Assembly (NCBI RefSeq): GCF_001282685.1
Contig: NZ_LN875034.1
Location: 498,157-562,156, forward strand
Direction: 5' to 3'
DNA from: Niameybacter massiliensis
GTDB taxonomy: Bacteria; Bacillota; Clostridia; Lachnospirales; Cellulosilyticaceae
DNA: 64,000 nucleotides
Under the pieces are notes generated by a model, which was not told where the DNA came from, did not search any database, and saw nothing but the letters and a program-made list of their open reading frames with translations. The translations under genes were made by a program, and so were the position numbers. Positions 2,067 through 38,279 of this stretch are shown piece after piece; within the stretch, counting starts at the first letter, position 1, and every line of letters starts with the position of its first letter.

Positions 2067-2300
2067 AGTTTAGGGAGTGAGGGCATGTAGTCAAGCTTGT
2101 TGTATTCCAACTTTTAGTCCTCACCTTTTAAGAGAGGCTAAGTTCATTACATCAAACTAACGGTCAAAACTCGAAAAAGAACAACACTTTTTCTCAAACA
2201 TTTCCCTAAAACCAGTTTGATTACATTTTCTAAGCCTCTCTAAAAAGGTTGCGGAGAAAGTCTCCATACAACAACTTGTCTACAGCCCATCACCTAAATT
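2066..2300. ncRNA. Long imperfect hairpin element, candidate 6S RNA
   Basis: The spacer between recD2 and comF is one imperfect palindrome of about 235 nt centred near 2183. The outer arms 2068-2107 and 2262-2300 pair (TTGTTGTA against TACAACAA). An open region follows at about 2108-2130 and 2236-2261. A long inner stem (AGAGAGGCTAAG at 2131-2142 with CTAAGCCTCTCT at 2230-2241) is capped by GAAAAAG/CTTTTTC with a 7-nt loop at 2180-2186. A closing stem, a central bubble and a terminal stem is the 6S RNA plan. The bubble could template an AAAAGGU-type product RNA on either strand. Strand is unresolved, and a MITE or a decayed inverted duplication is the alternative. Confidence 0.45.
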
Positions 2301-2378
2301 ACTAAGTTTTCACTCCATCAGAAACTTTTAAGAAATGACCCATTGATTAATCTAATACAAAGGAAAGTGGGAAAAGAG

Positions 2379-3101
2379 ATGTTCTTAGAAGTAGTAAGAG
2401 AGTGGCTGTGCCCTAATAAATGTATCGTATGCAGGAGTTTTATAGAAGAAAATAGTGGAGTAGGACTGTGCCTTCATTGTGAGGAAGCATTATTAGAAAG
2501 GAATCTATGCCCGAGGTGTGGAAAGCCTTATGGTGTGGATTCTAGTGTGTGCAGCTACTGTAATGAAGTGCCAAGAGGTGTAACACGCATTGTGGCACTT
2601 TTTCCCTATGTTGACTTCTATAAAGAAAGTGTATTAAGATGGAAATATACGGGTATTCGGAAATATGCAAAAGGTTATAGTGTTCTCATGGCTAATCTTA
2701 TTCAAAGAGAACATTTAGATATTGATTGTTTAATTCCTGTACCAATTGCTAGACATAGATATTTTGAAAGAGGTTTTAATCAAGCATTTGACTTGGCAGA
2801 AGAGTTAAGCAACTACACAAGCATACCTGTGTTGGAGTTACTTGAAAGAGCTTATGATACAAAGCCACAGTCTGCGTGTAAGAAAGAAGAACGTGCAAAG
2901 AACATTCATAAAGCCATTAGGGTTAAAGAGGATACGAAGCAGGACTTACAGATAGAAGGCAATGTGCCGATTAATATTGCACTTATTGATGATATCTATA
3001 CAACAGGAAGTACTGTAGCAGAATGTATTAGAGCACTTAAACAAGAAACATCTATTCAAATTCAAGATATTTATGTATTAACAGTTTGTTTAGCTATATA
3101 G
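2379..3101 (+). CDS. comF: ComF family protein (phosphoribosyltransferase-like competence protein)
   Basis: 240 residues. The N-terminal zinc-finger region has CPNKCIVC and CPRCGKPYG...CSYC pairs, followed by a phosphoribosyltransferase fold. The PRPP-binding signature IDDIYTTGST is near residues 211-220 and PVPIARHRYFERGFNQA lies mid-protein. ComF proteins support DNA uptake in competent Firmicutes, but the gene is also kept in non-competent Clostridia. I place the start at ATG 2379, because the in-frame TTG at 2343 has no ribosome binding site and adds residues not usual for the family. It is followed after 13 nt by yvyF, the same order as Bacillus comF-yvyF-flgM. Confidence 0.88.
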   Translation: MFLEVVREWLCPNKCIVCRSFIEENSGVGLCLHCEEALLERNLCPRCGKPYGVDSSVCSYCNEVPRGVTRIVALFPYVDFYKESVLRWKYTGIRKYAKGYSVLMANLIQREHLDIDCLIPVPIARHRYFERGFNQAFDLAEELSNYTSIPVLELLERAYDTKPQSACKKEERAKNIHKAIRVKEDTKQDLQIEGNVPINIALIDDIYTTGSTVAECIRALKQETSIQIQDIYVLTVCLAI

Positions 3102-4510: not shown

Positions 4511-6205
4511 ATGTCATCAATTGCTAGCTTAGGCCGTGTGACATCAGGTCTCAAGGCTGCACAGACCGGGTTACAAGTTACAGGACATAACATAGCCAAC
4601 GTCAACACAAAAGGTTATACAAGACAACAAGCACTACAACATGATTCAGGCTATATGACGGTAGGACAAAATGGTGGTAGACTTCAGCAAGTAGGGATGG
4701 GTGTATCCGTTACAGAAATTAGACAAATCAGAGATGAATTCGCAGATAAGCGTTTTCGTACGGAAAACTCTGTGCTTAATTTCTATATGGCTAAACAAAG
4801 TGCTACATCAGAGATTGAATCTATATTAGATGAACCTTATGGGGCATCTATTAGTGGGATGCTTGAAGACTTCTGGAAACAAGCACAAAAGTTATCTACC
4901 AATCCATCAGGTGTAGAAGAACGTCTTGCCTTTATTCAAACAGCAGATGTTTTGATGAAGCGTGCCAATCAAATTATGGGTGGACTGGGTGACTACCAAC
5001 AACATGTGAATACACAGGTTAAAGATGCTATTAAAGAAATCAATGATATGCTTTATAGCGTTAGAGATTTAAATGATAAAATTGCAAAAGCAGAAGTTAA
5101 TGGTGATCGTGCAAACGATTTAAGAGATCAACGTAACCTGCTTTTAGATGAACTTTCAAATTACATAGATATTGATTACTCTGAAGATAAAGATGGTAGA
5201 GTCAATGTGAAAACAGAAGGAAGAAACTTAATAGATGGACCTTTTGTAGTTGAGTTACAAGCGAAAGTCCTTCCAAATGGTTCAGGATTTGTCGTACCAG
5301 TATGGAGTGATACAGGCAAAGAGGTGTACAACCTAAACTCTGTTGTAAGTAGTAGTACAGGTGATGATACAGGTTACTTAAAAGGTTTACTTATAGCAAG
5401 AGGGCCTATGGCAGCAGATAGTAATACAAGCTGGGATAATATTGCCCTTAATAATAAAGAAAGTGTAGATAAATTAGGGAATAGCTTCGTTATTCCTAAG
5501 TTACAAAAACAACTTTCTGAGCTTGTTGGAGAGATTGCTAATGTAGTCAATGATACATTAAGTGGAACGGGAATAGGGGATCATAAAGGTGCAATGGGGA
5601 TTCCTATGTTTGTACCAAAGAATTCTACAGATGGTACCAAGTTACCTGCACAACCAAGGCTTGAAGACTATCCAGATGATGTAGAAGCCTACAATCAAGC
5701 TATGAAAGATTACCGCGTAGCTATTAAAAAACATCTTACAGCAGGTAACATTCAAGTGAATCCAGAGCTTCTTCAAGATGGTGGCTACAATAAACTTGGA
5801 ACGGTAGATGGTGATCCAGATAATATTGGTGATAATAGTGTGATAACCAAGCTTTTAGATGAGTGGTCTAAGACACGTGAATGGCCAAGAGAACCAGAAG
5901 GTGGTTGGGGTACAGCAGATGGTAAGGCACCAGCAAGTGCGCCAAATGGTAAAAACTCTAACTTCATGGACTTCTATGCTGAGATTGTATCTGAAGTAGG
6001 TTCAGAAGGCTCAGAATACAAGAATAAAATCAAAGAGAAAAACACTCTTGTAACAAGCATTGATAATGATCGTATGGCAATGGGTGCTGTTTCACAAGAT
6101 GAGGAAATGTCTAATATGCTTAAATACCAATATGCCTATAATGCAGCAGCCAGAATGGTTAATATGCTAGATGGGATGATGGATACTATAATCAACAAAC
6201 TATAG
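4511..6205 (+). CDS. flgK: Flagellar hook-associated protein 1 (FlgK)
   Basis: 564 residues. The N-terminal D0 region has the rod/hook signature GLQVTGHNIANVNTKGYTRQQ (SxxNIAN type). The C-terminal D0 helix is MLKYQYAYNAAARMVNMLDGMMDTII. The central part is variable. FlgK is exported by the flagellar type III apparatus and forms the first hook-filament junction zone. There is no signal peptide, as expected. AGGAGGTGGGAAG before ATG 4511 is a strong ribosome binding site. The next gene is a second FlgK of similar length. Confidence 0.93.
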   Translation: MSSIASLGRVTSGLKAAQTGLQVTGHNIANVNTKGYTRQQALQHDSGYMTVGQNGGRLQQVGMGVSVTEIRQIRDEFADKRFRTENSVLNFYMAKQSATSEIESILDEPYGASISGMLEDFWKQAQKLSTNPSGVEERLAFIQTADVLMKRANQIMGGLGDYQQHVNTQVKDAIKEINDMLYSVRDLNDKIAKAEVNGDRANDLRDQRNLLLDELSNYIDIDYSEDKDGRVNVKTEGRNLIDGPFVVELQAKVLPNGSGFVVPVWSDTGKEVYNLNSVVSSSTGDDTGYLKGLLIARGPMAADSNTSWDNIALNNKESVDKLGNSFVIPKLQKQLSELVGEIANVVNDTLSGTGIGDHKGAMGIPMFVPKNSTDGTKLPAQPRLEDYPDDVEAYNQAMKDYRVAIKKHLTAGNIQVNPELLQDGGYNKLGTVDGDPDNIGDNSVITKLLDEWSKTREWPREPEGGWGTADGKAPASAPNGKNSNFMDFYAEIVSEVGSEGSEYKNKIKEKNTLVTSIDNDRMAMGAVSQDEEMSNMLKYQYAYNAAARMVNMLDGMMDTIINKL

Positions 6206-8070: not shown

Positions 8071-9303
8071 ATGCGAATTACACAAGGAATGATTCAAAAC
8101 AGCTCATTGAATACAATGTATAACAACATGGGCAATCTGAATAACCTTTATAATCAGATGAACACACTTAAGAAGATTCAACGTCCATCAGATGACCCAA
8201 TCATTGCAGGACGTTCACTTAAATTAAGACTAAATGTAATGGAAGCCACACAACATGCAAGTAATGTAGACGAGGCGACATCTTGGATGGAAGTAACAGA
8301 AGCAGCACTTAAAAATACAACAGAGATTATCAAAGATATTCGTACACGTTGTGTACAAGCAAGTAATGGTACACTCACATCAGAAGATAGACAAAAGATT
8401 GTATCTGATATGAAGCAACTTTATAATCAGCTTAAACAAGAAGCTAATGTTACTTATGCAGGGCGTTATGTATTCTCAGGGTATAAAACAGATCAGCCTG
8501 TATTCTTGGAAAAAGAAACAAAGTTAGAAAAAGATTTAGAGCTTAAAGCAGATCTTAAGCTAACAGGGGATATGACTTTAAAAAAAGAGTTAGAGTTATC
8601 AGCAGATACTATTGTTACAGAAGATATTACGCTACCAGCAGGCACAGCAGTGACAGTAGATCCTGTGGATTCGGATAGAGTAGTGGTCAATGATGATGGC
8701 ACAGTAACAATCAAAGCGAGTACATCTAATCCACCAGAAAAGTTAGGTGCAACCGTTACGATTCCAGCAGGGACAGAGTTGAAGGCAAATACAACAATAC
8801 CAACAGGTACTACGCTCCCAGCAGGTGAGATGCTCCCAGCAGGTGTACTTAATCCAGCAGTACATGGCTATACAGATGGACAACGTATTGAATATGAAAT
8901 AGGCGTTAATAATACATTAGACGTGAATACTCTTGGTATGCCAGAGATGATGAATAAATTACTTAATAATATAGAAGGTATGCTAGATAAACTTAGTGAT
9001 GACAGCTTAACAGATGAAGAACTCAATCAAATCTTTACAGATATGATTGGAGAGATGGATAATCGTCTCAAAGAAACTTCAGAAATGACCGCAGAGCTAG
9101 GAAGTAAGCAAAATCGCCTTGAGTATACACAATCTCGTCTAGAAGATGATAAGACCAACTTTACAGAACTTCTCTCAAATACAGAAGATGTAGATTTAGA
9201 AGACGTGTATGTAGAATTTAATACTCAATACATGATTTATCAAAGTGGTTTACAAGCAACTTCTAAGATTATTATGAATACCCTTGCAGACTTCTTAAGA
9301 TAG
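8071..9303 (+). CDS. flgL: Flagellar hook-associated protein 3 (FlgL) with repeat-bearing insertion
   Basis: 410 residues, against about 300 in typical FlgL. The N-terminal helix MRITQGMIQNSSLNTMYNNM and the C-terminal region (SRLEDDKTNFTELLSNTEDVDLEDVYVEFNTQYMIYQSGLQATSKIIMNTL) are flagellin-like D0/D1. Residues about 150-270 are extra and contain degenerate short repeats (ITLPAGTAV, VTIPAGTEL, TTIPTGTTL, EMLPAGVL). These suggest a beta-solenoid-like exposed domain. AAGAAGGTGCAAC precedes ATG 8071. It forms the second junction ring under the filament. Confidence 0.92.
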   Translation: MRITQGMIQNSSLNTMYNNMGNLNNLYNQMNTLKKIQRPSDDPIIAGRSLKLRLNVMEATQHASNVDEATSWMEVTEAALKNTTEIIKDIRTRCVQASNGTLTSEDRQKIVSDMKQLYNQLKQEANVTYAGRYVFSGYKTDQPVFLEKETKLEKDLELKADLKLTGDMTLKKELELSADTIVTEDITLPAGTAVTVDPVDSDRVVVNDDGTVTIKASTSNPPEKLGATVTIPAGTELKANTTIPTGTTLPAGEMLPAGVLNPAVHGYTDGQRIEYEIGVNNTLDVNTLGMPEMMNKLLNNIEGMLDKLSDDSLTDEELNQIFTDMIGEMDNRLKETSEMTAELGSKQNRLEYTQSRLEDDKTNFTELLSNTEDVDLEDVYVEFNTQYMIYQSGLQATSKIIMNTLADFLR

Positions 9304-9387
9304 TAGTCACTATGATTCTGGTTCTATCTTACTAAGAATCGAGTACTATATAGAAGAAAACGTGAATAGAAACAAAAGGCATATCGA

Positions 9388-11917: not shown

Positions 11918-13141
11918 ATGAAAAAAATACTTATGCTTATCCCAAAATATATAAAAGAATTTAAATGTACAGGTACAGCATGTGAAGACACTTGTTGTGG
12001 ATGTTGGAAGATTACAATTGATGAGAGAACGTATAAAAAATATAAAAAAATACCTGATTATGAAATGAGAAAAAAAGTAGAAAAATACGTAGGTAGAAAT
12101 AGGGTAGGGGAAGATAAACATGAAGTAGCTAAAATAAGATTACAAAGTAGTTATTGTCCATTCTTAAATTCAGATAAGTTATGTGAATTACAGTTAAAAC
12201 TAGGAGAAGCGTATCTATCTAATACATGTGCTATGTATCCTAGGCTACATAAAAGAGTAAATGGTATAATGGAGCAAGGCCTGACTTTATCATGTATAGA
12301 AGCGGCTAAAGTTGTTTTATTAAATCAGGATGTAATGGAATTTGATCAAGAGGAAAGAGAGTTTACGGATAGAGATATTTATCTTCAAGAGTTTAAGACA
12401 AGGCCGGAATATCTTAGTTGGAAAGATTGTTTTTGGGATATGAGGATTGTAATGATTGGTATACTACAAAATAGAAGCTATACAATAGAAGAACGTTTGT
12501 TGATACTAGGATTACTGTGCAAAGAGTTAGATCAATTAGCTAAAACGCAGAAGGTAGATGAGATTCCTTATAGTTTAAATAGATTTAAGCAAAAATTGGA
12601 TGCTAATTTGTATAAAAATATTCTAGATGATATTCCGTCTATAGTAGAAATGCAATTAAAATTAGGTAAAGAATTGATAGATATACGTTATGAGATGGGT
12701 ATAAATGATGATAAGTATAATAGATATATATCAGAAATCATAGTTGGTTTAAATTTAACTGTAGATACATCATTAGAAAAAAGTTCAAATATTTATCGTG
12801 AAAGCTATGAAAACTATTATAGACCATTTATGGATGAACATGGGTATATTTTTGAAAATTATTTAGTAAATTATTTCTTCTTAGAGCTTCTTCCTGTAAA
12901 TAAGGAATCAGTATTTGAAAGTTATGTAGGTCTTATTTTGCACTATATTATCATCAAATTACACCTTATAGGGGTAGCCAGTATTCATAAAGAATTAGAG
13001 GTAGAAAATGTTATAGACCTTATACATGTATTATGTGGTACATATGAGCATAATCCACATTATTTTAACCGAATTTTAAGATTACTAAAAGAAAATGGAT
13101 ATATAGATTTAGCTCATATGGCTATCTTAATTAAAAATTAG
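11918..13141 (+). CDS. fliB: Flagellin lysine-N-methylase FliB
   Basis: 407 residues. The N-terminus PKYIKEFKCTGTACEDTCCGCWKIT carries the family cysteine cluster, with CPF...C and C-x-MYPR cysteines further on. FliB methylates lysines of flagellin, probably through an Fe-S/radical-type cluster. The family is defined by the cysteine motif, and the chemistry is incompletely known. It sits directly after flagellin. AAAGGAGAAAAT precedes ATG 11918. It is more AT-rich than the flagellar genes on either side, so it may be accessory. Confidence 0.85.
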   Translation: MKKILMLIPKYIKEFKCTGTACEDTCCGCWKITIDERTYKKYKKIPDYEMRKKVEKYVGRNRVGEDKHEVAKIRLQSSYCPFLNSDKLCELQLKLGEAYLSNTCAMYPRLHKRVNGIMEQGLTLSCIEAAKVVLLNQDVMEFDQEEREFTDRDIYLQEFKTRPEYLSWKDCFWDMRIVMIGILQNRSYTIEERLLILGLLCKELDQLAKTQKVDEIPYSLNRFKQKLDANLYKNILDDIPSIVEMQLKLGKELIDIRYEMGINDDKYNRYISEIIVGLNLTVDTSLEKSSNIYRESYENYYRPFMDEHGYIFENYLVNYFFLELLPVNKESVFESYVGLILHYIIIKLHLIGVASIHKELEVENVIDLIHVLCGTYEHNPHYFNRILRLLKENGYIDLAHMAILIKN

Positions 13142-15423: not shown

Positions 15424-15792
15424 ATGATAACTAATCCATATCAACAATATCAAAATAATTCCATCATGACCGCATCACCAGGAGAATTAACATTAATGCT
15501 ATATAATGGTGCAATTAAATTTTGTAATCTCACTCTTGAGGCAATGGAACAAAAGGATGTACAAAAAGCAAATCAATCTAATTTACGTGTTCAAGATATT
15601 ATTACTGAACTTCAAGCAACATTAGATACAAAATATGAAGTGGGTCAAGAAATGGATAGGCTTTATACTTTTATTAGACAACTTTTAATAGAAGGCAATA
15701 TCCAAAAGAATCCACAAAAAGTTATCGATGCGAGAGAACTCATTCGTGAGTATCGTGATACTTGGCAACAAGTGATTAAGATGGCAAAGTAG
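15424..15792 (+). CDS. fliS: Flagellin export chaperone FliS
   Basis: 122 residues. NPYQQYQNNSIMTASPGELTLMLYNGAIKFC is the FliS signature. FliS binds the flagellin C-terminus in the cytoplasm and stops early polymerisation. It follows fliD in the usual order, with TAGGAGGACAGTA before ATG 15424. Confidence 0.95.
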   Translation: MITNPYQQYQNNSIMTASPGELTLMLYNGAIKFCNLTLEAMEQKDVQKANQSNLRVQDIITELQATLDTKYEVGQEMDRLYTFIRQLLIEGNIQKNPQKVIDARELIREYRDTWQQVIKMAK

Positions 15793-15828: not shown

Positions 15829-16014
15829 ATGGATATCGCAGCATTATCAATGGCACTTAGCCAAATGAACGTAGGGACGCAAGTAGGTGTAGCTGTTACT
15901 AAGCTTTCTATGGATATGGGAGAGCAAACAGGACAAGCTATGGCAGATATGCTTAAGAGTATGGAGCTTTCAGTCAATCCTAACTTAGGTAGCACGATTA
16001 ACGTTAAACTTTAA
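15829..16014 (+). CDS. YjfB-like putative motility protein
   Basis: 61 residues (MDIAALSMALSQMNVGTQVGVAVTKL..., ending in NVKL). This is the pattern of the short YjfB family often found in motile Firmicutes and under SigD control in Bacillus. Its function is unknown. AAAGGATGTGATCC precedes ATG 15829. It is the last gene of the flaG-fliD-fliS unit, before a strong terminator. Confidence 0.75.
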   Translation: MDIAALSMALSQMNVGTQVGVAVTKLSMDMGEQTGQAMADMLKSMELSVNPNLGSTINVKL

Positions 16015-16026
16015 TAAGTACATAAT

Positions 16027-16066
16027 AAAAAGAGAAATAGTCTAACTAGACTATTTCTCTTTTTTA
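16027..16066 (+). terminator. Bidirectional terminator after flagellar cluster
   Basis: 17-bp perfect stem 16027-16043/16048-16064 (AAAAGAGAAATAGTCT core) with a 4-nt loop, and runs of A before and T after. It works on both strands. Confidence 0.93.
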
Positions 16067-16138
16067 GTAACTCTTAATGCATTGCATCTTACGTAGTGCA
16101 TCAGGAACGTGGCAATTTAATAGTTTTATTTCAACGCA

Positions 16139-16746
16139 CAAGAAGCCACCCTAAGTCAGTCTTTTCCTCCCTGCTTGCGCAAAGACTGACTTAAGGTGGC
16201 TTCTTGTATTGTGTGGCAAGGTTATAACGTATAAGTATCTTCCTAGTATGTAGCAGTAACCGTTGTATAGACAGAGCTGTTCCGTAGACGTGGTACTCTT
16301 GGACTTACCGCGCTACATGCGTGCCGCGTTGGTGTGCCTGCAGTGACAGGGATCCCTAATGGATGTATTATGCCAGGTGCCCAAGGCTGACCGTATGTAC
16401 GCCGGATTTACCTCATACGTTGTCTGGGTAACAGATTGTGTATACATTAGGTATGGGCTATTTTGAGGTGGAAGACACTATTTAGTTATATGGTGACCAG
16501 TTACCTACAGTTGCCACAACCTATAGGACTGGGTGTCTAAGAAAGGTAAGTTTATAAGTCAGGGAGGAGGAGCCTTATGTGCTTAATCTTTCTTAGACGG
16601 GTATCGGAGGAACAAGGGGCCTAGGACTTGTCCTATAGGATACCTATAAGGTGTTTATACCTTATATATATACATACGCCGCAGCAAGAGAAAATTCGTC
16701 GCAAAGGGCTATAAAATTTTCTCTTATTCTGTGGCCTACAATTTTT
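16139..16746 (+). ncRNA. Large structured non-coding RNA candidate, unknown family
   Basis: No plausible gene lies between 16067 and 16958, yet 16139-16746 is visibly richer in G+C than its surroundings and full of helices. These are 16139-16164/16181-16206 (26 bp, one mismatch); 16389-16397/16414-16424; 16424-16432/16500-16510; 16535-16545/16588-16598 enclosing 16547-16550/16582-16585 and 16554-16558/16574-16578 with a GGGAGGAGGA loop; 16600-16605/16639-16644 enclosing 16612-16616/16627-16631; 16645-16652/16659-16666; and the terminator 16678-16746. G-U pairs in the last helices favour the + strand, but the first helix is neutral or favours minus. I found no tmRNA, RNase P, SRP or tRNA signatures. 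The size class is that of OLE, GOLLD or ROOL RNAs. The 5' end and promoter were not located. Confidence 0.7.
16678..16746 (+). terminator. Intrinsic terminator ending the structured RNA
   Basis: Two stacked stems, GCCGCAG 16678-16684 with CTGTGGC 16729-16735 (one G-U) and AAGAGAAAATT 16686-16696 with AATTTTCTCTT 16715-16725, then ATTTTT at 16741-16746. Confidence 0.7.
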
Positions 16747-16958
16747 AGCATGAAGCATGCAACATACCTCACCATAAAAACTGTATACCTATATATACAC
16801 GAAAAATAAAAAAAGTCTCCCAAATATAAAGCAAAAAGATTGATTTTGTTAAAAATGCTTAGATGGGACTAGAGTATATTGTACAAAAACACAACAAAAA
16901 GAGCGATTAAATCATAAGCTAATACCATGAGGTAATACATAGAAACAAGCCAATAACT

Positions 16959-16986
16959 TTTACATTCTTTTTAAATGGGTTATACT
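16959..16986 (+). promoter_or_regulatory. Promoter for the SNF2 helicase unit
   Basis: TTTACA 16959-16964, a 16-nt spacer, TATACT 16981-16986. It overlaps an in-frame ATG at 16975, so that ATG cannot be the translation start. Confidence 0.65.
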
Positions 16987-17031
16987 GTAAGGATAGGTAT
17001 TGAACAAAAGAGAATGTGTAAGGAGCAGGCG

Positions 17032-20000
17032 ATGATTACATTAGAAGAGATTAAAGAGATGTGTTCAAGTGCGACAATCTTTAATGATGCTAAGCATTTG
17101 TACGGTTTGGGGTTTGTAAAGCATATTCAAGTTTTTAAGTCACCTGAGGGTTATGAAGTCCAAGGGTGTGTAGAAGATAGAGGAAGACTTATAGATGTTT
17201 TAGTGAAGCTTAATGATGCAGGACGTGTCACACATAAGTGTACCTGTAATGGGCCTTATGGCAATTGGTATATTTGTGAGCATGTGGCGGCATTGCTCAT
17301 TGAGTTTTGTGTGCGTATGAAAGAGGGCTCGGTAGAAGTACAGCCTATCGAGCAGATTTATGGTGCGCAGATGTTAGATTTCTATGAGAATGAAGTGACA
17401 AAACAAGTGCAAGTGTTGAAGAAGGGTTATATTAGTGTACAGCCAAAGCTCAATCATTTATGGGGAGATCGTTACGGTCTCAGTCTGCAAATAGGAGAAG
17501 ACCGTATGTACATTGTGAAGGATGTCATTGCTTTTGCTTCTGCCATTGTCAATGAGGAGCAGCTAGATTATGGCAAGAACCTTTCTTTTATCCATCATAT
17601 AGAGGCTTTTAAAGAAGAAGATAGACCTTTTGTAGAATGGTTTGTAGATGAGGTTATTGCCAAGCAGATGTTAACGGATCAGATCCTAATGAACGGAAAA
17701 GGGAGTCGTATGGATAAGAAGCTATTAACTTTAACGACTCAAGGATTTGATAAGTTATTTGAACTTTTAGAAGGGAAGAGTATTGCCTATGAAGGGGGCG
17801 TAGGGAATAGTTTAACTTTAATAAGAGAGAATCCTGTTCTATTCTTTAAGGCTGAGCAACAAGACACTCAATTTATATTAACTTTGAAAAAAGAACCATG
17901 GGAGCTGATTAAATATCCTAAGAGTAGCTATATTATGATGGAAGATAGATTGTATAAGTGTAGTAAGACTTATGCAGATGCCATTATGCCGATTTTAATC
18001 TTTATGCACGACATGCATACCAATGTGTTAGCCTTTGATGAAAGAGGATGGCAACGTTTTGTGCTGACCATATTGCCGAAGATTAAACGTCAAGTAGCAT
18101 TAGAAATTGATCAAAGGCTTTTAGAAGAGTATGATCCACCTAAGCTTGAGATTAAACTTTTCTTAGATAAGGATAGCAACAATAATATAGTAGGAAAAGT
18201 CACCTTCAAGTATGGACATACCAGTTTTAATCCTTATGATTCAGGGGATAATGTACAGGTTGAAGTAGCACGTGAAGTGGGTAAAGAACATGCTTTTAAC
18301 AATCTTCTCGCTCAATATCCTTTCAAAAATCGTAATGGACAAATTCATTTAGATGAAGAAGAAGCCATTTATGATTTCTTAAATGAAGGAGTAGAAACCT
18401 TACTTGAGTTAGCTGAAATTCATATATCAGAAGACTTAAAGCAGATGAAGTTTAAGAAGCCAACAATAGGTTCGATTGGCATTAAGATAGAAAGTGATCT
18501 GCTTAAAGTGAATTTTCAAGAGATCAATATGACCGCTGAAGAAATAGAAGCCGTTATTTTCGCTTATAAACAAAAGAAAAAGTACTATCGTCTTAAAAAT
18601 GGTGCCTTTATTAATACAGAGGCTCATGATGTGGAGCAATTAGCAGCTATCTTAGAAGGACTGGATCTAGATTATGATACTATCTTGCAAGGGGAAGTAG
18701 AGCTTCCTAAGTTTAGAGCCTTATACTTAGATCAAATCCTTAAGAAAAGTGATGAGATTCAAGTTGAACGTGATAAGTACTTTAAGCAAATTATAAGGGA
18801 TATCAAAAATGTAGAAGATACAGATTATGAAGTGCCAGCTACACTTAAACGTATTTTAAGAAGTTATCAAAAAGTGGGGTATAGATGGTTAAAGACGATG
18901 GCGGCCTATGGATTTGGTGGCATACTTGCTGATGATATGGGACTTGGTAAAACACTTCAAGTCATCGCTTTATTCCTTTCAGAGAAAGCTGAGAAGGCTC
19001 ATCCAAGTTTAGTTGTGGCACCTACCTCTCTTGTTTTAAATTGGGAACGTGAGATTATGAAGTTTGCACCAGAACTGAGTGTATTGGTTCTAGCAGGTGA
19101 CTTTGAAAGTCGTAGAGAGCGAATCGAAAGCATTGCAGATTATGATGTAGTCATTACATCTTATGATACGTTAAAGCGTGATATCGATTATTATGAGGAC
19201 TTAAACTTTAGATTCTGTATAGCTGATGAGGCCCATTATATCAAAAATCCCAATACACAAAATGCCCAAGCCTTAAAGATGGTTAAGAGTGAAGTGCGTT
19301 TTGCATTGACAGGTACACCTATAGAAAATACATTAGCAGAGCTGTGGAGTGTGTTTGACTTTATCATGCCAAGCTATTTATACAATTACTTAAGGTTCAA
19401 AGGAAGTTTTGAAACACCTATTGTGAAGTTTGAAGATGAACGTGCAATCAATCGCTTACGTAGTATGGTGGCACCATTTATTATTAGACGTTTGAAAAAA
19501 GAAGTGCTTAAAGAGCTTCCAGATAAGACGGAAACCATCATTATTAACCGCATGGAAGAGGAACAAGCAACCCTTTATAAAGCGCATCTTGCTATGATGC
19601 AAAAGGAGTTTAATAAGGAAGTTAAAGAAAAAGGTTTAGGCAAAAGCCATATCAAAATTTTGGCCATGCTTACACGTTTGAGACAGTTATGTTGCCATCC
19701 AGGATTGTTCCTTGAAGATTATGAAGGTGGTAGTAGTAAATTGGATCAATGTCTCGAACTTATAGAAGATAGTATAGAAGCAGGACACAAGATTCTTCTA
19801 TTTTCTCAGTTTACGACTATGCTTGAGAAAATAGGTGAAGAGTTAGAAAAACGAGATATTCGTTATTATAAGTTAACAGGTGAGACAAGGGCAGATAGAC
19901 GTCTTGCTATGGTAGAAGCCTTTAATGAAGATACCACACCTATTTTCCTTATTTCATTAAAAGCAGGAGGAACAGGACTGAACTTAACAGGTGCAGATAT

Positions 20001-20247
20001 TGTTATTCATTATGATCCATGGTGGAATGTATCAAGTGAAAACCAAGCGACAGACCGTGCGTATCGTATTGGACAAGAGAAGAATGTACAAGTCTTTAAG
20101 CTGATTACGCAAAATACTATAGAAGAAAAAATCAAAGAGCTTCAAGAAAGAAAGATTGGTTTAGCGGATAACGTCTTAACAGAAGGACATACATTGATTG
20201 GGCAAATGACAGAAAATGAGATAAGAGATTTATTTACCTTAGATTAA
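17032..20247 (+). CDS. SWIM zinc-finger SNF2-family DNA-dependent ATPase
   Basis: 1071 residues. A SWIM zinc finger is near residues 69-86 (CTCNGPYGNWYICEH, C-x-C...C-x-H). A bacterial SNF2-associated region follows. The SNF2 ATPase has Walker A DDMGLGKT near residue 635 and DEAHYIKN near 733. The helicase C domain has SLKAGGTGLNLTGADIVIHYDPWWN and the motif VI arginines ATDRAYRIGQ. These proteins translocate on double-stranded DNA. Their cellular role in Clostridia is uncertain (transcription recycling or repair). Start is ATG 17032 with AAGGAG at 17020-17025, since the promoter -10 sits on the upstream ATG 16975. It is followed by two small coiled-coil genes. Confidence 0.9.
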   Translation: MITLEEIKEMCSSATIFNDAKHLYGLGFVKHIQVFKSPEGYEVQGCVEDRGRLIDVLVKLNDAGRVTHKCTCNGPYGNWYICEHVAALLIEFCVRMKEGSVEVQPIEQIYGAQMLDFYENEVTKQVQVLKKGYISVQPKLNHLWGDRYGLSLQIGEDRMYIVKDVIAFASAIVNEEQLDYGKNLSFIHHIEAFKEEDRPFVEWFVDEVIAKQMLTDQILMNGKGSRMDKKLLTLTTQGFDKLFELLEGKSIAYEGGVGNSLTLIRENPVLFFKAEQQDTQFILTLKKEPWELIKYPKSSYIMMEDRLYKCSKTYADAIMPILIFMHDMHTNVLAFDERGWQRFVLTILPKIKRQVALEIDQRLLEEYDPPKLEIKLFLDKDSNNNIVGKVTFKYGHTSFNPYDSGDNVQVEVAREVGKEHAFNNLLAQYPFKNRNGQIHLDEEEAIYDFLNEGVETLLELAEIHISEDLKQMKFKKPTIGSIGIKIESDLLKVNFQEINMTAEEIEAVIFAYKQKKKYYRLKNGAFINTEAHDVEQLAAILEGLDLDYDTILQGEVELPKFRALYLDQILKKSDEIQVERDKYFKQIIRDIKNVEDTDYEVPATLKRILRSYQKVGYRWLKTMAAYGFGGILADDMGLGKTLQVIALFLSEKAEKAHPSLVVAPTSLVLNWEREIMKFAPELSVLVLAGDFESRRERIESIADYDVVITSYDTLKRDIDYYEDLNFRFCIADEAHYIKNPNTQNAQALKMVKSEVRFALTGTPIENTLAELWSVFDFIMPSYLYNYLRFKGSFETPIVKFEDERAINRLRSMVAPFIIRRLKKEVLKELPDKTETIIINRMEEEQATLYKAHLAMMQKEFNKEVKEKGLGKSHIKILAMLTRLRQLCCHPGLFLEDYEGGSSKLDQCLELIEDSIEAGHKILLFSQFTTMLEKIGEELEKRDIRYYKLTGETRADRRLAMVEAFNEDTTPIFLISLKAGGTGLNLTGADIVIHYDPWWNVSSENQATDRAYRIGQEKNVQVFKLITQNTIEEKIKELQERKIGLADNVLTEGHTLIGQMTENEIRDLFTLD

Positions 20248-24290: not shown

Positions 24291-24301
24291 GTTGAAAATG
24301 A

Positions 24302-24425
24302 ATACTGTACCGCAGACAGTAGGTGCCGAAAGGCATAACGTATACAACCTACCGAGGTCTATATCATACTATGGACGGATGTATCACCACTTTGCCTGCG
24401 GAAAAAAGCAAAGTGGTATTTTTTT
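24302..24425 (+). promoter_or_regulatory. Ribosomal protein L10 leader with attenuator
   Basis: The leader has the L10-leader pattern: CTGT/ACAG closing pair, AGTAGGTGCC-GAAA-GGCA hairpin, and CCTACCGAGGT at about 24347. It ends in an intrinsic terminator, ACCACTTTGC 24386-24395 with GCAAAGTGGT 24408-24417 plus a T run to 24425. The L10-L12 complex binding here would favour termination and balance synthesis. Confidence 0.93.
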
Positions 24426-24454
24426 GACATAACCTGGAATTAGGAGGTGTAACA

Positions 24455-38181: not shown

Positions 38182-38279
38182 GTGACATTGAGAACGATGA
38201 TTCAGAAGGTTACCGCTTATAAAATAAGCAAATTTCTGAGGAGCGAATGTCCGGTTCATGAAACCAGACGACAAGTCAC
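38182..38279 (+). promoter_or_regulatory. Structured leader of the S10 operon
   Basis: GTGAC 38182-38186 closes with GTCAC 38275-38279, and GACATT with AATGTC at 38246-38251. Inside are GCTTAT-AAA-ATAAGC and GTCCGGTT-CATG-AAACCAGAC hairpins. A further ~145 nt of leader runs to rpsJ. It is a likely r-protein or attenuation control element; the ligand is not known to me. Confidence 0.65.

Follow-up and report, generated by a model that had tools for sequence, protein, structure and literature searches.

A probable gene for a large structured RNA in the window

The window, a stretch of 64,000 nucleotides from the genome of Niameybacter massiliensis, appears to hold a gene belonging to a family of large non-coding RNAs that has not been described before; this is the best explanation overall, and we give it a probability of about 60%. 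At least 25 full-length copies are present in the same genome, together with six relics, and each was read individually. The original prediction of a large structured RNA of unknown family stands in that respect, but it missed the at least 25 diverged copies and likely read the wrong strand. The RNA gene and the features around it, in window coordinates, are:

15829 to 16014, plus strand: ORF of 61 aa (from the ORF listing), downstream of fliS and convergent with the RNA
16027 to 16064, no strand assigned: inverted repeat, probably the terminator of the flagellar operon (from the sequence and its self-match; no terminator call)
16130 to 16664, minus strand: RNA gene of about 535 nt, the extent common to the copies, with putative ends (the 5′ end placed from a promoter-like motif, the 3′ end from hairpin P1)
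16975 to 20247, plus strand: ORF of a SNF2-family helicase, divergent from the RNA; below the NCBIfam equivalog cut-offs and therefore assigned at the family level only

The fliS gene lies at 15424–15792 (NCBIfam). As predicted, there is no convincing gene from the end of the 61-aa ORF (16014) to the start of the SNF2 ORF (16975), and the G+C content is raised: 300-base bins over 15900–16799 have 0.37, 0.46 and 0.40, compared with 0.31–0.36 before and 0.30 just after. Bins inside the SNF2 gene reach 0.34–0.42. The predicted folding energy of 16139–16746 is 6.1 sd (plus strand) and 6.8 sd (minus strand) below the mean of 20 dinucleotide shuffles, and none of the 20 shuffles folds as well on either strand. 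The element shared between copies spans about 16130–16664, and promoter-like sequence continues to about 16703. Both the long hairpin at 16138–16207 (P1) and the purine-rich loop on an 11-bp stem are present, the loop sitting on an inner stem within this hairpin. The reported terminal hairpin with a T run (about 16689–16741), on the other hand, is a mistaken reading: it lies outside the part common to the copies, overlaps the promoter-like motif and is an inverted repeat in the promoter region. No terminator was called on either strand of 16000–17000, where the hairpin at about 16689–16741, P1 and the repeat at 16027–16064 all went uncalled.

Diverged copies in the same genome

BLASTN searches of the genome with the window copy retrieved six other full copies, 73–75% identical to it, and several fragments, one of which (locus L014) turned out to be a full diverged copy. 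Further copies came from covariance models, sequence patterns and the reading of neighbouring sequence. Models R1 and R2, representing two segments of the first seven copies, together with two patterns of the central motif led to more distant copies; the first pattern produced 10 matches (one a relic) versus none for its reversed control, the second 13 (one of them, L048, coding) versus two. Four more were added by model R3, for which seven copies from two other subfamilies were used, read on the opposite strand. This model did not find L039, L041, L057 and L038b at the expected place, and it matches L038a at E = 0.15 and L014 at E = 0.74. L038b is a tandem copy spotted by reading, and the RNA forms two tandem arrays, L011 and L038. 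Pairwise identity of the 25 copies ranges from 34 to 94%, with a median of 44%. To our knowledge, no other structured RNA longer than 500 nt, introns aside, has more than 20 diverged copies in one genome.

The six relics (L011, about 9263–9373; L013, about 12704–12848 and from about 11133 onward; L015, about 799–927 and about 7416; L062, about 5640–5745) were excluded from all structure counts. Several candidates were dropped as copies: L048, L107, L096 of genome G169 (E = 0.005) and L120, from a viral contig, are coding, and reading of L109 and L110 (E of about 0.03) showed them to be devoid of the copy architecture. A conserved short peptide was likewise rejected, because minus-strand ORFs of at least 35 aa are not common to the copies.

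Architecture and covariation

On the minus strand, the order from 5′ to 3′ is the 5′ region, hairpins P3 and P4, a long central domain with an apical hairpin, a UUUGCCAC strand and P1. The 5′ region contains UCCUAGG in 17 of the 25 copies and UUCUAGA in five.

16535 to 16598, minus strand: P3, long hairpin with a C-rich loop (fold, covariation)
16497 to 16532, minus strand: P4, hairpin with loop GGUUGUGGCAA, of type GGUGGCAA across copies (fold, covariation)
16343 to 16371, minus strand: apical hairpin of the central domain, a motif common to most copies (shared sequence, pattern matches)
16138 to 16207, minus strand: P1, 3′ terminal hairpin with a G-rich loop, a possible terminator; the U tract is weak in the window copy

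The covariation that the original prediction expected of homologues was found among paralogues, in P1, P3 and P4, all homologues lying within this one genome. In P1 (25 copies), 12 of 19 pairs are altered on both sides with 92.6% of cells paired; none of 500 shuffles scores as high, and slid controls pair in 31–56% of cells. For P3 and P4 together, 27 of 29 pairs are altered on both sides and 86.7% of cells are paired (0 of 500 shuffles as high; slid controls 36–49%), in an alignment of 16 of the 25 copies that was fitted to R3, seven of the 16 having built that model, and thus leans to its structure. This 16-row alignment, which replaced one of 32 rows holding many false ones, is without L014, L038a, L038b, L039, L041 and L057 (under the threshold) and L104–L106 (not given). 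A plus-strand structure of the first seven copies has double changes in 39 of 150 pairs and, with a loop pairing included, no shuffle out of 500 equals it on four measures, while 9 of 500 do on a fifth. Such covariation leaves the strand undecided, because paired regions covary on either strand.

Neighbouring genes and possible mobility

The gene past P1 is convergent with the RNA in 15 of 25 copies and codirectional in 10, and 11 of the 15 convergent genes end within 50 nt of the listed RNA end; neighbouring ORFs were called mechanically, and the one at L038a is doubtful. P1 follows directly after stop codons in many copies and often abuts the stop codon of a convergent gene. Three loci, L009, L041 and L057, have a common gene set: a DnaD-like gene (upstream of the RNA and codirectional with it), a sigma-70-family gene, DUF1659 and DUF2922. 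The assignments rest on Pfam or PHROGs for L009 and on BLAST clusters for L041 and L057, with the sigma gene recognized by Pfam in all three. The recurrent set spans L009:7380–11077, L041:3083–5551 and L057:2923–6824. YvrJ was identified in L057. Relatives of the sigma protein occur in 17 of 24 genomes of the family, its own included, and the DnaD-like protein has partial relatives in plasmids and phages. No tRNA genes were found in the 22 loci holding other copies or in 6000–27000 of the window, and ARAGORN detected no tmRNA.

These surroundings bear on a serious rival to the RNA gene family, namely that the RNA is the selfish body of a non-autonomous mobile element which moves to sites by stop codons and whose fold helps it to move. 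Signs of this are the relics, the tandem copies and the DnaD-like partner: 25 full copies and six relics are spread over many loci, with tandem arrays at L011 and L038; P1 stands straight after stop codons in many copies; and three copies adjoin a DnaD-like gene related to replication proteins of phages and plasmids. Many copies per genome in inconsistent orientation are a mark of mobile or repeat elements, according to PMC11109978. As with the mobile or repeat candidates of that source, there are several copies per genome with varied orientation to their neighbours; unlike those candidates, the present RNA is about 540 nt long, has its own promoter-like sequence and strong covariation, and has no mobility protein among the scanned neighbours. 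Pfam or PHROGs scans of 18 neighbour proteins, a minority of all neighbours, revealed no transposase, integrase or reverse transcriptase. The copies also keep their structure intact despite high divergence, and different promoter types are kept at the same place. We regard such an element as possible but doubtful.

Loop pairings

Two long-range pairings that involve loops, K1 and K2, could be defined:

16561 to 16568, minus strand: P3 loop UCCUCCCU, K1 partner of the P1 loop (loop complementarity)
16165 to 16172, minus strand: P1 loop AGGGAGGA, K1 partner of the P3 loop (loop complementarity)
16511 to 16518, minus strand: P4 loop UGUGGCAA, K2 partner of 16212–16219 (complementarity)
16212 to 16219, minus strand: UUGCCACA, just before P1, K2 partner of the P4 loop (complementarity)

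K1 can form at least eight consecutive pairs in 20 of 21 copies, the exception being L059; examples are UCCUCCCU/AGGGAGGA, UCCCCCUU/AAGGGGGA and CCUCCCUUAU/AUAAGGGAGG. Over these 21 copies the mean energy is −18.9 kcal/mol for cognate loops, −17.3 within the same subfamily and −15.7 between subfamilies; none of 20000 permutations attained the cognate value. The preference for the cognate loop is not absolute: 16 of the 21 copies would pair equally well with one or more loops of other subfamilies, and L055 would do so in 14 of 15 cases. A K1 scan on all 25 copies chose a different stretch for L055 and L059. K2, which joins the P4 loop with UUGCCAC, was found in all 25 copies, its cognate mean being −11.7 kcal/mol versus −7.5 for shuffled partner regions, with 1 of 20000 permutations as good; 18 copies score better than 95 or more of 100 shuffles and seven do not. 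The four copies with GGUGACA/UGUCACC in K2 score −11.9 inside their own group and −6.3 with the partner regions of others. In both pairings complementarity is kept while the letters change between copies.

Drift of the P3 loop with maintained pairing to P1 speaks for a structural contact rather than for a set target outside the RNA, for instance ribosome-binding sites. It thus weighs on the idea of a regulatory RNA acting in trans, in which the C-rich loop of P3 would bind Shine–Dalgarno sequences unless blocked by the G-rich loop of P1. P3 loops of the UCCUCCCU kind do show complementarity to AGGAGG-type sites, and these loops would be masked by K1, but a ribosome-site target should hold the letters constant, whereas the loops drift (UCCCCCUU, UCCCUCUU, CUCCCUCUG) and it is the complementarity to P1 that is kept. 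A regulator of this kind is unlikely.

Probable transcript boundaries and strand

An amidase gene begins 13–47 nt past the listed RNA end in the same direction at L009, L014 (both by Pfam and PHROGs) and L057 (by BLAST). The RNA could act in cis on the amidase, as its leader or attenuator, with P1 terminating transcription conditionally; however, the amidase is there in only 3 of 25 copies, and 15 of the 25 have a convergent gene facing their end, making this quite unlikely. Each gene of the family is probably transcribed along the minus strand from its own promoter, ending at P1.

The minus strand is the most likely one, in our view with high confidence, owing to the asymmetry of G·U and A·C cells in the terminal stem, the promoter-like sequence at the corresponding end and the shuffle z-scores. 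In the outer columns of P1 (36–49, 25 copies), 27 cells are G·U and one is A·C on the minus strand, the 27 becoming A·C mismatches on the plus strand; 15 of the 27, summed by hand, lie in one column and the others across seven columns, and common ancestry inflates the count. A count of the full 21 pairs that start at column 36 and run inward, the badly aligned inner stem included, gives 45 to 23 in favour of minus, with 14 copies leaning minus, two plus and nine even. A separate G·U/A·C count on 21 copies, in some of which the anchor is off, yields 29 versus 9 (15 copies lean minus, none plus, six even). P1 by itself is more stable on the minus strand in 18 of 21 copies. With P1 removed, the mean shuffle z is −3.44 for minus and −2.36 for plus (21 copies, 25 shuffles each), minus being lower in 16 copies, plus in three, and two being tied to one decimal place. 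Of five subfamilies (20 copies), four have minus as the strand favoured by RNAalifold.

At the 5′ end on the minus strand, 22 of 25 copies have promoter-like sequence, either a sigma-A-like hexamer pair (11) or a GTATRTATA/GTGTATA box (14), three having both; at the opposite end the hexamer pair occurs in 2 of 25 and the box in none. Shuffled 5′-end stretches give a promoter-like match in a mean of 3.0 copies and a maximum of 8 (300 shuffles). These patterns were picked after the sequences had been seen, and L036, L038b and L056 were matched at places differing from the choice by eye. The promoter expression missed L009, L055 and L059, where similar boxes are visible by eye.

The plus strand, on which the original prediction placed the RNA, has in its favour a lower raw folding energy in 14 of 21 copies, the window copy among them, and the RNAalifold preference in the main subfamily, that of the window (−119.6 versus −109.0). 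Against the outer-stem G·U cells, the greater stability of P1 on minus, the z-scores without P1, the other four subfamilies and the promoter-like sequence at the minus 5′ end, a plus-strand RNA is very unlikely, and that earlier reading is most likely wrong.

Promoter-like motifs and sigma factors

Two promoter-like motifs precede the minus-strand gene in the window:

16669 to 16703, minus strand: promoter-like motif CGACGAATT followed by TGCGGCGTATGTATA, of a type that matches the L009 DnaD-like and L009 DUF1659 ORFs
16788 to 16823, minus strand: second, distal promoter-like motif TTGGGAGACTTTT..TTCGTGTATA, recognized by eye, of the type seen at L011a and L013

With up to two mismatches over 16 bases, the genome has just six matches to the GTATGTATA half, and none to its reversed control. 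Four of them belong to RNA copies (window, L009, L011b, L012), one precedes the L009 DnaD-like ORF and one precedes L009 DUF1659/DUF2922; both non-RNA places adjoin a sigma-factor gene. L041 and L057 have a different motif, of the TGAGGAAAAT..TTCCGTATATA type, at the same three places, and it also precedes L038b; the motif is exact at two L041 places and L038b and was assigned by eye at the others. Other copies have sigma-A-like promoters. The presence of an own motif type at all three places of each locus (L009; L041 and L057) would fit a cognate sigma factor. The sigma genes match Pfam Sigma70 region 2 with 26.2 bits at L009 (cut-off 24), 35.0 at L041 and 33.7 at L057, and in the NCBIfam sigma70-ECF model L009 falls just below the cut-off and L041 and L057 above it. 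Since the motif of four copies recurs only before operons flanking a sigma gene, subsets of the copies may plausibly be switched on by small sigma-70-family factors.

Relation to known RNA families

No Rfam family matched the window copy at gathering score on either strand, in keeping with the original prediction, and at E up to 10 there were only matches far below the cut-offs. The same holds at gathering score for eleven other copies, two of which yielded nothing noteworthy when E values up to 5 were allowed. Matches to microRNA, snoRNA, plastid and other families, all far below their cut-offs, were taken as chance. The stated absence of group II domain V, tmRNA, RNase P and SRP signatures was borne out by Rfam, and domain V was not seen by eye either; for the window copy there was also no match to an Rfam group I intron model. 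A diverged group II intron, ROOL, GOLLD or OLE, similar in size and complexity, is extremely improbable, none being among the Rfam matches of the window copy (E up to 10) or of two copies of other subfamilies (E up to 5).

OLE is known as a single-copy RNA encoded next to a partner gene, and ROOL, GOLLD and OLE are marked by homo-oligomers made of RNA alone. The profiles of ROOL, GOLLD and OLE are in Rfam, as stated in PMC12286853, and no covariance-model match to them was obtained in the 12 of 25 copies scanned. Going by that source (PMC12286853), OLE resembles the present RNA in length class, complex fold and a kissing loop, differing in that our RNA has no match to it in Rfam. ROOL is likewise a large, ornate RNA of bacteria whose fold includes pseudoknots and kissing loops (PMC12286853), and phage-type genes near some copies here add to the likeness; ROOL is often near tRNA islands (PMC12286853), whereas the present RNA has no tRNA gene nearby, no Rfam match and many diverged copies in one genome. 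GOLLD is large, has kissing loops and is expressed more during phage lysis (PMC12286853), which may be set beside the endolysin-type amidase next to three copies; many of its members exceed 800 nt according to the same source, as against about 540 nt here, and the present RNA again differs by the lack of an Rfam match and of nearby tRNA genes. ROOL and GOLLD are carried by phages or prophages, and GOLLD too often lies near tRNA islands. Endolysin-type, DnaD-like and sigma genes lie beside some copies of the present RNA, and BLASTN searches of phages and plasmids with three copies gave no match.

The family is new, no description of it having been found in the open-licence literature searched. 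Large ornate non-coding RNAs are already known as a kind; what is new is the massive paralogy in one genome together with promoter switching.

Searches beyond this genome

No copy was found outside this genome in the searches run. BLASTN with the window copy against 95 other genomes gave none (up to six candidates scored per genome). In 23 other genomes of the family, among which there is no second genome of the genus, R1 found nothing and R3 made two weak matches that proved false on reading. R3 on 391 other genomes of the order, a weak search with eight candidates scored per genome, returned one false match only. Nothing matched in phages (queried with the window copy and L104) or plasmids (window copy and L060), four of five patterns had no match in viral contigs and the fifth one chance match, and one pattern had 0 matches in 84,980 species genomes, with the proviso that all these collections may omit records near this genome. 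Nine stretches around sigma genes of relatives had no R2 match and a best R3 match of E = 2.1, and none of nine loci with a DnaD-like protein in other species had an R3 match.

Possible role of the RNA

The RNA might be a compact folded scaffold, possibly oligomeric, held shut in cis by K1 plus K2, or through K1 contacts from one molecule to another. This suggestion stems from the P3 loops, which change between copies yet keep their P1 pairing, and by analogy from kissing loops, which are among the contacts stabilising the cages of ROOL and GOLLD (PMC12286853). Expression could partly fall within a lysis- or envelope-type programme together with the amidase, YvrJ, DUF1659 and DUF2922, and the copies might have spread by duplication or mobility, drifting apart while the structure stays. 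As a speculative proposal, this would be a new kind of RNA gene family whose copies multiply and diversify in one lineage, each with its own promoter, like copies pairing through drifting kissing loops into RNA particles; dedicated small sigma factors would switch the RNAs on along with lysis-type genes. The copies constitute a natural covariation experiment within a single cell; loops, promoters and whole copies can be removed or swapped, which makes the role of large ornate RNAs testable, and the link between promoter-like motif and sigma gene is an entry to the function of the RNA.

Other elements near the copies

Several further elements were noted. In the tandem array of L011, a nucleotidyltransferase/HEPN pair of toxin–antitoxin type (8374–9127) separates a relic from a full copy. 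An ORF beside an RNA relic at L013:11440–12615, which has no Pfam match, is related to an ORF at 11918–13141 of the window, in the flagellar region. RNase P RNA-like sequence was recognized by eye beside one RNA copy (L103, about 2110–2490, reverse strand), and L104:9382–9621 is a T-box leader. In the window, Rfam identified, as expected, the ribosomal leaders L10_leader at 24292–24431 and S10-Clostridia at 38189–38274.
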